Part shown: positions 4,222-41,889 of the stretch, piece after piece
Layout of the letters: every line of letters starts with the position of its first letter
Position numbering within the stretch: the first letter of the stretch is position 1
Made by a program: the position numbers and the translations under genes
Origin: Gemmatirosa kalamazoonensis
GTDB lineage: Bacteria > Gemmatimonadota > Gemmatimonadetes > Gemmatimonadales > Gemmatimonadaceae
Reading direction: 5' to 3'
Length of the DNA: 64,000 bases
Assembly (NCBI RefSeq): GCF_000522985.1
Contig: NZ_CP007130.1
Location: forward strand, 310,001-374,000
The notes under the pieces: generated by a model
What the model was told of the DNA's origin: nothing
The model's database searches: none
Seen by the model: the letters and a program-made list of their open reading frames with translations, nothing else

Positions 4222-4239
4222 GTTAATCGACGCCTAATC
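4222..4239. promoter_or_regulatory. 11-bp-phased direct repeat GTTAATC / CCTAATC
   Basis: Two heptamers of the form NYTAATC start at 4222 and 4233, separated by four bases, about 45 bp before the ATG at 4282. The same arrangement occurs upstream of the gene at 40949. Heptameric direct repeats in 11-bp phase are the known type of site for SARP/BTAD regulators. Assignment to such a regulator is inference. Confidence 0.4.
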
Positions 4240-4281
4240 CGTCCGACACGACCCGGTAACTCGGCCACCGTATCATCGATC

Positions 4282-4758
4282 ATGACGACGTTCGCCGCCG
4301 CCATGGCCCAGCGCGAGTCGCGCGTCGTGCGCTTCGTGCGGCGCGCGGCGGTCGTGGCGGGCTGCCTGTACGCGGTCTCGTTCGCGTGGAGCATCTGCCG
4401 TCGGCTGCGGCAGATCCTGCACATCGAGGCGCGCGCGAGCTCGCTCGTGTTGGCGCCGGGATCCGCGGTCGGCTTCGACGTGATCGCATCGGGCGAGGTG
4501 CCGAACCGGATCCGGCTCGAGCTCGTCCAGGGACCGCGGCGTGAGGTGCTCCTGGAGCAGCGCGCGAGGACGAACCGGATCCGAAGCCTCGACCCGCGCG
4601 TCTTCCGGTACACGCCGACCGTTCCGATCACGCCCGCGCTGCTCGCGCGATTCCGTCCGGGACCCGCGACGCTGCGCGCGACGGGCTTCGGCGGGCAGAA
4701 GCTCCTGCACACGCCGGCGCCTCGGATCGACGAGCTGCAGGTTCGGCTGCAGCCCTAG
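4282..4758 (+). CDS. Hypothetical protein with one N-terminal membrane segment
   Basis: I do not recognise this 158-residue protein. It has a positively charged start, one hydrophobic stretch at about 22-40 (AAVVAGCLYAVSFAWSI) that anchors it in the membrane, and a soluble part rich in beta-strand-like segments (SSLVLAPGSAVGFDVIASG, then IRLELVQGPRREVLLEQ). The C-terminus ends PRIDELQVRLQP. The upstream region has the 11-bp-phased TAATC repeats. Downstream, 154 bp separate it from the ankyrin gene on the same strand. Confidence 0.6.
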   Translation: MTTFAAAMAQRESRVVRFVRRAAVVAGCLYAVSFAWSICRRLRQILHIEARASSLVLAPGSAVGFDVIASGEVPNRIRLELVQGPRREVLLEQRARTNRIRSLDPRVFRYTPTVPITPALLARFRPGPATLRATGFGGQKLLHTPAPRIDELQVRLQP

Positions 4759-38715: not shown

Positions 38716-40839
38716 CTAGGCGAGGTTCATGCGCCGCAGTAGCGCCTCGAACCGCGGCTCGCCGCGCAGCGAGGCGAACAGGAACGACCCCCGGATGCCG
38801 TAGACGCCGCCGGCGCGCTCCGCCACCGCGCGCTCCAGCCAGTCCATCGCGCGGCCGGCGTCGCCGAGGCCCGAGTGGACGTAGGCGACGTGATAGGGGG
38901 ACACGTACGCGGTCCGCGCGCGCGCCTGCAGCTCGCCCACGATCGCCTCCGCCGCGGCCGCGTCGCCGTTCATCCCCTGCGCCGCGCCGAGCTGACCCAG
39001 CCACAGCGTGTTGCCGGGTGCGAGCGCGACGGCCTGCCGCAGCTCGGCGAGTCCCTCGTCCCGGCGGCCGCCGAGGAAGTACGCCCATCCGAGCGTCGCG
39101 CGCGCGCGATCGTGCGCGGGGTCCAGCTCCACCGCGTTCTCCGCGTGGCGCACCGCCTCCTCGTAGCGCCCGGCGCGGAGCAGCAGCGTCGCCACGTCCG
39201 CGCGGTGCGCGAGCGGATCCAGCGTCTGGGCGCGCTGGAGCAGCGCGAGCGCCTCGTCGTACCGCTCGAGCGCGGCGCACAGGCGCCCGTACAGCTCGTG
39301 CGCGTCCGCGTGGCCCGGGCCGAGCTCCAGCGCGCGGCGGAAGTCGTGCTCCGCGCCAGGCCAGTCGAAGTCGCGCACCATCTTCAGGTATGCCATGGCG
39401 CAGTGCGCCGGGCCCAGCTCCGGGTCGAGCCGCAGCGCCGCCTCCGCCGCCGCGGCGGCACGTCGATACGCGACGTCGGGCGCGACCGCGCCGTGCTCCA
39501 CCAGCTCGGTGCACGCCGTCGCCAGGCTCGCGCACGCGAGCGCGAACGTCGGGTCGCGCGCGAACGCCCGGTCGAAGCACTCGATCGCGCGCGCGAGCGC
39601 GTCCGGCGTGTACTCCGTGAACCACTGGCGTCCGCGAAGGAACAGGGAGTGCGCGTGCATGTCCCGCGTCGGCTCGCGGCGCACGCGCGCCTGCTCGTCG
39701 CGCGAGAGCTCCGCCTTCAGCGCGGCGGCGATGTGCAGCGCGACGTCCGTCTGGATCGCGAAGACGTCCGTCACGTCGCGATCGTACGTCTCGGCCCACA
39801 GGTGCTGCTCGGTGCGCGCGTCGACGAGCTTGGCGACGATGCGCACGCGGTCGCCGGCGTGCCTAACGGTGCCGTCGAGCAGCGTCGTCGCGCCGAGCGT
39901 GGCGGCGAGCGACTTCAGGCTCGCCGGCCGCGTCTTGAACGGCGCCACGGAGGCCCGCGCGATCACGTCCAGCGCGCGGATCTTCGAGAGCTGCGCGATC
40001 ACGTCCTCGGTGAACCCGTCGGCGAAGCGCTCGTGCTCCGGCTCCGCGCTCAGCGCGAGGAACGGCAGCACCGCGACCGAGGGGACGCGGCCGTCGCGCG
40101 CGGCGTGCGCCGTCGTCGCGCGTGTCGCCGGAGCGCGGCGCAGCCGGTCGGCCAGCGCGGTCACCGCGTGGTCAGGATCGAGATCGAGATCCTCGCGCAG
40201 GCGACGCGCGTGCGCGCCCGCGTGCGCGATCGCGCCCGCGCGGTCGCCCGCCGCGTCCAGCGCCTCCATGAGCGCGAGCGCGTGCGCGGCGGAGTGCGGC
40301 TCGGCGGCGGCGAGTCGCCGGAGCGTGGCCGCGCGGCCGTGCACGTCGCCCTCGCGTCCCTGCCGCTCCGCGATCGCGCGCAGCGCGTCCACGTAAGCGT
40401 GCGCCAGCTCGGCGCGTCGCGTGTCGAGCCAGAAGTCGAACTCCGCCGACTCGGGCAGATGGAACCCGTCGAGCAGCGGACCGGCGTAGAGCCGCAGCAC
40501 CTCGTCGTGCGCCCCGGCGGCGATCGCGGTGCGCAGCGCGTGCAGGTCGCAGTCGAGCGCCGTCGGATCGAGCAGGAGCCCGTCGTGCGCGGTCACGATC
40601 GTGCCCTCGCCGAGCGTCGCGCGGAGCACGTGCACCGCGAGGTTGAGCAGGCGCCGCGCGCTCGCGAGGTCGCGCTCGGGCCACAGCAGGGCCATCGCGC
40701 GGTCGCGGGCGAGCGCGCGCGGCCACGCGGCGACGACGAGCGTCAGGAGCGCGATGCGATGGCGCTGCGCCGGCGGCCCGCCGACGGGCGCGTCGCCCGA
40801 GCGCAGACGCGCGCCGCCGAGCAGGTGGACCGAGATCAC
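38716..40839 (-). CDS. BTAD transcriptional regulator with FlgO-like domain and TPRs
   Basis: The 707-residue protein begins with a winged-helix output domain (about 1-95: ISVHLLGGARLRSGDAPV, then RRLLNLAVHVLRATLGEG), followed by a bacterial transcriptional activator (BTAD) domain to about 240. A FlgO/adenylate-cyclase-type region follows (SVAVLPFLALSAEPEHERF to about 395), then TPR units such as ERYDEALALLQRAQTLDP. It probably acts as a DNA-binding activator, with repeats binding a partner. The GTG at 40839 is 110 bp from the divergent gene at 40949. Its middle is homologous to that of the kinase at 22347, but with another input module. Confidence 0.9.
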   Translation of the reverse strand: MISVHLLGGARLRSGDAPVGGPPAQRHRIALLTLVVAAWPRALARDRAMALLWPERDLASARRLLNLAVHVLRATLGEGTIVTAHDGLLLDPTALDCDLHALRTAIAAGAHDEVLRLYAGPLLDGFHLPESAEFDFWLDTRRAELAHAYVDALRAIAERQGREGDVHGRAATLRRLAAAEPHSAAHALALMEALDAAGDRAGAIAHAGAHARRLREDLDLDPDHAVTALADRLRRAPATRATTAHAARDGRVPSVAVLPFLALSAEPEHERFADGFTEDVIAQLSKIRALDVIARASVAPFKTRPASLKSLAATLGATTLLDGTVRHAGDRVRIVAKLVDARTEQHLWAETYDRDVTDVFAIQTDVALHIAAALKAELSRDEQARVRREPTRDMHAHSLFLRGRQWFTEYTPDALARAIECFDRAFARDPTFALACASLATACTELVEHGAVAPDVAYRRAAAAAEAALRLDPELGPAHCAMAYLKMVRDFDWPGAEHDFRRALELGPGHADAHELYGRLCAALERYDEALALLQRAQTLDPLAHRADVATLLLRAGRYEEAVRHAENAVELDPAHDRARATLGWAYFLGGRRDEGLAELRQAVALAPGNTLWLGQLGAAQGMNGDAAAAEAIVGELQARARTAYVSPYHVAYVHSGLGDAGRAMDWLERAVAERAGGVYGIRGSFLFASLRGEPRFEALLRRMNLA

Positions 40840-40851
40840 CGTGCGGCCTCC

Positions 40852-40870
40852 GCTAATCCGTGGCTAATCC
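40852..40870. promoter_or_regulatory. 11-bp-phased direct repeat GCTAATCC
   Basis: GCTAATCC occurs at 40852-40859 and 40863-40870, exactly one helical turn apart, in the divergent region between the BTAD regulator and the lipoprotein at 40949. Heptamer direct repeats with 4-bp spacers are characteristic of SARP/BTAD binding. The regulator gene next door makes autoregulation or control of the 40949 gene plausible. A like element exists at 4222-4239. Confidence 0.5.
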
Positions 40871-40948
40871 CCGGGACGCATGGCGGTAAATCGGGCCCGC
40901 GCATCGTGCCCGCGCAGTTCCACTCAACCTTCATTGCGCGAGGCCCTC

Positions 40949-41548
40949 ATGACACGCACTGCCCTGCTGTTCCCGCTCGCCGGACTTCTCACGCTGGCGC
41001 AGCTGGCCGGCTGCCGCGGCGAGCCGACCACGCCCACGCGTCCCGACCAGATGCTGAGCGTCGGCGACCTCGCGAGCAAGAGTCCCGCGGCGACCGTCGA
41101 GCGCGACGTGGCGACGCTGCGCGCCGCGACGACGCGCTTTCACCGCTTCGACGCCGCCCGGAAGGCGTCGTACACGTACCTGTTCATGAACACGTGCATG
41201 ACCGACGGCAGCGCCCCGAGCCGCGGCGCGATGGGCTACCACTACGTCAACACGGGGCTCCTCGACGGCACGGTCGACGTCGCGACGCCGGAAGCGCTGC
41301 TCTACGAGCCGGGGGCGCAGGGCGAGCTCGCGCTCGTCGGCGTGGAGTACGTCATCCCGCAGGCGGCGTGGGCCGGCCCCGGCAAGCCGAAGCTGTTCGG
41401 GCGCGAGTTCACGCTGAACGGCTTCGGGCTGTGGGCCCTGCACGTGTGGGCGTGGCGCGACAACCCGAGCGGCATCTTCGCCGACTGGAACCCGCGCGTG
41501 TCGTGCGAGCACGCGAGCGCCGGCGCGAGCGCCATGGCGGCGCACTGA
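40949..41548 (+). CDS. Hypothetical lipoprotein
   Basis: The 199-residue protein has a lipoprotein signal (FPLAGLLTLAQLAGCRGEP, Cys 21). The mature part has the features MGYHYVNTGLLDGTVDVATP, EALLYEPGAQGELALVGVEY and GFGLWALHVWAWRDNPSGIF, and recalls a family of secreted bacterial proteins of unknown function; I cannot name a domain. The start ATG at 40949 is chosen for the signal peptide over an upstream ATG at 40880. It is followed closely by the DUF4242 gene and likely forms an operon with it, under control of the phased repeats. Confidence 0.7.
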   Translation: MTRTALLFPLAGLLTLAQLAGCRGEPTTPTRPDQMLSVGDLASKSPAATVERDVATLRAATTRFHRFDAARKASYTYLFMNTCMTDGSAPSRGAMGYHYVNTGLLDGTVDVATPEALLYEPGAQGELALVGVEYVIPQAAWAGPGKPKLFGREFTLNGFGLWALHVWAWRDNPSGIFADWNPRVSCEHASAGASAMAAH

Positions 41549-41580: not shown

Positions 41581-41889
41581 ATGCCCAAGTACCTCATCGA
41601 GCGCGAGATCCCGAACGCGGCCGCGCTCACCGGCTACGACCTGCAGGGCATCGCCGCCCGCTCGTGCGCCGTGCTGCGCGAGCTCGGCCCGAGCATCCAG
41701 TGGGTGCAGAGCTACGTGACCGAGGACAAGATCACGTGCGTGTACATCGCGACGAACATCGACCTCGTGCGCGCGCACGCACGGCTCGGCGGCTTTCCGG
41801 CGGATCGCGTGCTGGAGATCGCGACGGTCATCGATCCGACGACCGCCGAGACGGACACGATCGCCGCGGCGACGGCGCGCGACCGATAG
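41581..41889 (+). CDS. DUF4242-domain protein
   Basis: The 102-residue protein is a ferredoxin-like small domain of the DUF4242 family: PKYLIEREIPNAAALTGYDL, then SIQWVQSYVTEDKITCVYIA, then RAHARLGGFPADRVLEIATV. The family is proposed to bind metal or act as dimeric beta-alpha-beta units; its biochemistry is unclear. No signal peptide is present. It lies 32 bp after the lipoprotein gene on the same strand. Confidence 0.8.
   Translation: MPKYLIEREIPNAAALTGYDLQGIAARSCAVLRELGPSIQWVQSYVTEDKITCVYIATNIDLVRAHARLGGFPADRVLEIATVIDPTTAETDTIAAATARDR

Follow-up and report, generated by a model that had tools for sequence, protein, structure and literature searches.

A conserved, 11-bp-phased repeat array beside a BTAD-TPR regulator gene of Gemmatirosa kalamazoonensis as a probable SARP-like operator

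The window that we analyzed, a 64-kb stretch of the Gemmatirosa kalamazoonensis genome, contains a gene for a BTAD-TPR regulator of 707 amino acids (38716..40839, minus strand, start GTG) and, on the plus strand, a divergent pair of genes. The regulator is composed of an OmpR-type winged helix, a BTAD domain, a weak FlgO/TolB-like middle and TPRs; Pfam recovered the BTAD domain at 42.5 bits together with the TPRs, and gave weak matches to Trans_reg_C and FlgO, both under the cut-off. An AlphaFold model of residues 1-240 (pLDDT 94.8) matched only AfsR and EmbR among PDB folds at E <= 0.001, and a phmmer search of the PDB with the window protein alone returned nothing useful. Pfam, the model and the fold match thus place both an OmpR-type DNA-binding domain and a BTAD domain in the regulator. 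The closest solved fold is that of EmbR from Mycobacterium tuberculosis (E 1.3e-10), which differs in having an FHA domain at its C terminus (PMC10936776), where the window protein has TPRs. The first gene of the divergent pair is a lipoprotein-like ORF (40949..41548, start ATG) with a lipobox, LAGC, recognized by eye and no family match in Pfam. The second (41581..41889) encodes a SCO4226-like protein, assigned by Pfam (PF14026, 85.4 bits; called DUF4242 in the original prediction) and by synteny, for which the Pfam name alone hints at a link to nickel.

The spacer between the GTG of the BTAD gene and the ATG of the lipoprotein-like ORF is 109 bp long and holds a direct repeat, with GCTAATCC at 40852-40859 and again at 40863-40870. 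This is exactly where the original prediction had placed two copies one helical turn apart in the divergent BTAD promoter region, and the period is 11 bp. Read on the BTAD strand, the repeat is GGATTAG-N4-GGATTAG, and the whole element, GGATTAGCcacGGATTAGC, ends 12 bp before the GTG. We designate the gene-proximal unit DR3 (GGATTAGC, 40852..40859, minus strand) and the second unit DR2 (also GGATTAGC, 40863..40870, minus strand). The first T and the A of the DR3 core are invariant in all 16 orthologs described below. A degenerate third unit, DR1 (CGATTTACC, 40885..40893, minus strand), lies 23 nt upstream of DR2 and reads GRTTARC in most orthologs. A -10-like hexamer region (40902..40908; CACGATG on the minus strand, CATCGTG on the plus strand) lies 17 nt before the DR1 core and could serve either direction. 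A consensus scan of positions 40700-41100 found no sigma70-type promoter, and inspection by eye of the ortholog family of the window gene showed no TTG at the regulator's -35 place.

The 8-mer GCTAATCC occurs twice in the window, both times within the repeat, against an expectation of 0.28, and the spaced pattern occurs at a single locus in the 7.48-Mb genome. Two looser patterns, RNTTARC-N4-RNTTARC and RATTAGC-N4-RATTAGC with one mismatch, were also unique genome-wide (their backward controls gave 1 and 2 matches), so that the genome-wide search for the repeat in 11-bp phase that had been proposed recovered this locus and no further sites. Exact repeats of at least 8 bases at distance 11 occur five times in the 64-kb window, and when the 109-bp spacer was shuffled, 39 of 20,000 shuffles yielded such a repeat. 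The low chance expectation is by itself a weak argument for the repeat; the case rests on conservation and on the family-wide pattern.

We sought orthologs of the regulator in 288 genomes of the order, its own included, and found that 16 carry one, with 50-71% identity over the N-terminal 240 amino acids. In all 16 ortholog leaders two T(T/C)A cores, those of DR2 and DR3, lie exactly 11 bp apart, and a third site at the DR1 position is found upstream of DR2 at 23 nt in 15 leaders and 22 nt in one. These distances, 11 bp and then 22-23 bp, agree with the spacing expected of a SARP operator. The TTA of DR1 is intact in 14/16 orthologs, reads TTT in the window and is lost in one genome, G056, and the -10-like hexamer keeps its A in 15/16 and its T in 16/16. 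Across these leaders the 18 DR core columns have a mean information content of 1.60 bits, compared with 0.79 for the remaining 126 columns (Mann-Whitney p 2.7e-8); for one ortholog, L078, no definite start codon could be assigned. The 11-bp repeat is conserved across all orthologs, with variable flanks. As a narrower search, we looked for RNTTAGC-N4-RATTAGC in 59 relatives, again with the own genome included, and found it in four, all among the five that have an ortholog of at least 65% identity (the backward control matched once each in 3/59 genomes). One of the genomes, G027, which has an ortholog of the window BTAD gene, carries an extra site away from that BTAD gene, an exact GTTAGC/GATTAGC pair at 11 bp (L071/L190; G027:C7:16817-16834), and its neighborhood offered no clear target gene.

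Synteny extends to both divergent genes, lipoprotein and SCO4226-like, in 13 of the 16 orthologs, which makes control of the operon by the regulator plausible. At one further locus (L084) only the lipoprotein gene is present before the contig end, and at another (L083) just 236 nt of flank are available. In G056 (L033/L063) both genes are absent within 1.5-2.5 kb, and ORF inspection indicated that the upstream ORF is seemingly co-directional with the BTAD gene. The same genome that lacks a third site has kept the 11-bp pair, with TCA cores, and this single natural experiment fits autoregulation by the DR2-DR3 pair, with the third site tied to the operon.

Arrays of this kind are not confined to the ortholog family. 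We assembled a set of BTAD leaders from this genome and its relatives, with orthologs excluded apart from the window gene itself; from 139 loci, 6 without a tblastn match and 1 near-duplicate were dropped before 5-mers were counted, L028 was left out for want of a match in the locus search, and the set comprised 118 leaders. Within the 110 nt before the start codon, an exact 5-mer was repeated at distance 11 in 64/118 leaders and at distance 22 in 45/118, whereas the remaining distances between 7 and 35 gave 6-19 of 118. The corresponding counts in a control stretch, taken 220-330 nt upstream, were 15 and 13 of 117. The arrays have 2-5 units with TCA, TTA or TCG cores, and in 54/118 leaders no exact 5-mer recurs at distance 11. 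A sample of the phylum yielded 29 high-scoring Pfam BTAD loci, whose starts are poorly fixed; these showed no 11-bp excess (6/29; other distances 0-7), and the 11-bp array rule is not universal among BTAD genes.

The arrays also stand in a fixed register to promoter-like signals. In 39/118 leaders a core pair is preceded, at exactly 17 nt, by the A and T of a -10-like hexamer (mean of 6.2 when hexamers and arrays were mispaired); the distance is 28 nt in 31/118 and 39 nt in 19/118 (about 5-6 in mispaired leaders). Hexamer-to-start-codon distances fall into groups at 52-53, 62-65 and 75, spaced by 11. In 15/41 array leaders a TTG occupies the -35 place for the regulator's direction, against a 7% background. 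Given the excess at 11 and 22 bp, the fixed hexamer register and the -35 TTG, we conclude that leaders of this subfamily are typically taken up by the array, from the promoter-like signals of the regulator to its start codon. Shine-Dalgarno-like motifs are rare directly upstream of BTAD start codons (8/118 leaders, e.g., L099, L106 and L115). A few leaders (L058, L109 and L118) have a different layout, with TTGC-N17-TACnTT only about 11 nt before the ATG, which suggests nearly leaderless transcripts.

We compared the repeat cores with the recognition helices of the adjacent regulators, using 53 arrays (one per gene) of the 64 out of 132 leaders that passed as arrays, with the orthologs of the window gene, other than itself, left out. 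Of all residue-by-position pairs tested over residues 40-81, residue 67 and core base 3 were the best (z 10.0). Gln accompanies A in 32 arrays and G in 3, Asp accompanies G in 8 and A in 1, and Asn accompanies G in 2; the remaining pairs are Lys-G (2), Val-A (2), Leu-A (1), Glu-A (1) and Ser-G (1). With ancestry considered, residue 67 differs in 13 of 16 disjoint nearest pairs that have a different base compared with 7 of 26 same-base pairs, and of 9 changes of the base and 5 of the residue, 3 coincided on a branch (p 0.004). In a profile alignment residue 67 lies opposite AfsR T88, one of two residues described as making base-specific contacts in an AfsR-promoter structure (PMC10936776). As expected of a SARP-type operator, a recognition-helix residue thus appears to read the repeat core in the paralogs. 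The window protein and its orthologs have Leu at 67 and Arg at 63 and fall outside the Gln/Asp code, so that they are a special case of the code, not an example of it. Residues 63 and 70 left the orientation of the protein on the array ambiguous, a signal probably confounded by ancestry, since only 8/53 arrays have T at core base 2.

Operators of Streptomyces SARPs (AfsR/afsS, PimR/pimM, DnrI and ActII-ORF4) are described as heptamer-type direct repeats of two or three units with a period of 11 or 22 bp, and AfsR sites as CGTT(T/C)ATCGNN (PMC10972967, PMC5930380, PMC10936776). The likeness to our system extends to the 11/22-bp period, the T(T/C)A core found in AfsR sites and the combination of BTAD with an OmpR-type winged helix, and the original description of the repeat as SARP-like was borne out by its spacing and by the AfsR and EmbR fold matches. 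SARPs are reported to bind upstream of the target -10 and to activate (PMC10936776, PMC10972967). In contrast, the array here is situated in the leader, in fixed register and downstream of the -10-like hexamer of the regulator itself, which speaks against the textbook SARP activation of the regulator's own gene that the original prediction implied.

The neighboring regulator very probably binds the array, given the residue-base covariation in paralogs and the alignment of that residue to the base-contacting T88 of AfsR. Autoregulation, as originally proposed, is well supported, if indirectly, by ortholog conservation, the family-wide 11/22-bp excess and the covariation, and repression would be its likeliest sign because the array is downstream of the regulator's -10-like hexamer. 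Overall, these sequence patterns lead us to favor, as a reasonably probable reading, an operator of the adjacent SARP-like BTAD regulator through which it would repress its own gene and probably also set the divergent operon. Winged-helix domains would line up along one face of the DNA, each on an 11-bp unit, with DR2 and DR3 as the main units and the weak DR1 assisting. A bound array, just downstream of the putative start region of the regulator's transcript, would block its transcription and give the BTAD gene negative feedback. The array is also upstream of the divergent operon, so binding would probably set operon expression as well, possibly via a -10 common to both directions.

We also considered the possibility that the array mainly serves the divergent operon through SARP-style activation, with DR1 about 9 bp from a poor plus-strand -10 and any effect on the regulator's own gene secondary. 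Several observations lend this explanation some weight: the operon is syntenic in 13/16 orthologs, is cut short or out of view at a contig end in two, and is absent in the one that also lacks DR1; the 9-bp gap resembles a rule reported for SARPs, in which 8 bp separate the 3' repeat from the downstream -10 of the promoter under control (PMC10936776); and A follows the hexamer in many array leaders. In addition, among 69 related leaders with longer flanks (6 of them without a call; the short loci L098, L100 and L145 are not in this set), the neighbor was divergent in 40/43 leaders with an array-phased hexamer versus 15/20 without, although these codon-score calls are approximate. However, the DR2-DR3 pair persists in G056 without the operon, and arrays without a close divergent gene exist (e.g., L115 and L099). 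Moreover, the invariant T and the register of residue 67 would put the protein in the AfsR orientation on the BTAD strand, flipped for the operon promoter, with residues 63 and 70 ambiguous. We therefore regard an array devoted mainly to the operon as possible but unlikely.

Explanations that dispense with the regulator as the binder fare worse. PhoP/OmpR-type regulators share the habit of an 11-bp direct-repeat spacing, and another winged-helix protein such as one of these response regulators might be the real binder. In support, PhoP is reported to bind a region overlapping the AfsR box (PMC10972967), yet across paralogs the core bases vary together with the recognition helix of the neighboring gene's product and the site is unique in the genome, and we consider a different binder improbable. 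Still less probable is an RNA-level element, in which the repeats would affect translation or pausing from within the BTAD mRNA 5' leader. It would suit an array that fills the leader, the clustering of hexamer-to-start distances by 11 (16/41 at one value modulo 11) and the rarity of Shine-Dalgarno-like sites, but helical phasing and covariation with a DNA-contact residue point to DNA. A chance origin, in a part of the GC-rich spacer that is richer in AT, could draw on the five similar repeats in the window, but this was rejected as contradicted by the conservation of the repeat in 16/16 orthologs with variable flanks, and the family-wide excess tells against it too.

Returning to autorepression with a joint effect on the operon, the hexamer has traits that would suit a -10 shared by both directions. 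On the plus strand it reads CATCGT in the window and CATGTT in several orthologs and lies about 9 bp from the third site, so that the 8-bp SARP spacing is approached in the divergent direction, with the protein probably flipped, whereas the BTAD direction has the hexamer upstream of the array. Its A and T are both conserved, as noted above, and in paralog leaders the hexamer is followed by A in 20/41 (16% background), which suits a -10 of the opposite strand, and preceded by T in 12/41. With 400-nt flanks and orthologs included, we found no tie between A after the hexamer and a near divergent gene (3/18 divergent versus 21/38 unclear leaders); with longer flanks, A follows in 18/40 leaders called divergent. 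A precedent is SoxR, which at the bidirectional soxS/soxR promoter of Escherichia coli is described as repressing its own gene and activating the divergent one from a shared -10 (PMC12825309). SoxR belongs to a different protein family, and the sharing of a -10 here is our reading of the sequence. More speculatively, many BTAD-TPR subfamily regulators might combine a symmetric shared -10 with a one-sided array, such that one binding event turns the regulator off and its neighbor on, each regulator having its own repeat word read by a Gln-A/Asp-G code at one helix position; we offer this doubtful generalization only tentatively.

BTAD regulators are known mainly as activators of antibiotic clusters in Streptomyces. 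In our searches of the open-access literature we found no account of such BTAD arrays in Gemmatimonadota. Our analysis pairs dozens of regulators from a poorly studied bacterial group with candidate DNA sites, suggests that the binding word of a regulator may be predictable from the leader of its own gene, and suggests that the SARP fold may serve autorepression too. The natural specificity variants, Gln with A versus Asp or Asn with G, are available for testing a recognition code.

Elsewhere in the window, at 4222-4240, there is a similar 11-bp-phased element, GTTAATCGACGCCTAATCC, which departs from the pattern by 3 mismatches (expected number of matches in the window, 0.11). An ATG near 4283 follows about 40 bp downstream, and the element is possibly the site of a related regulator.
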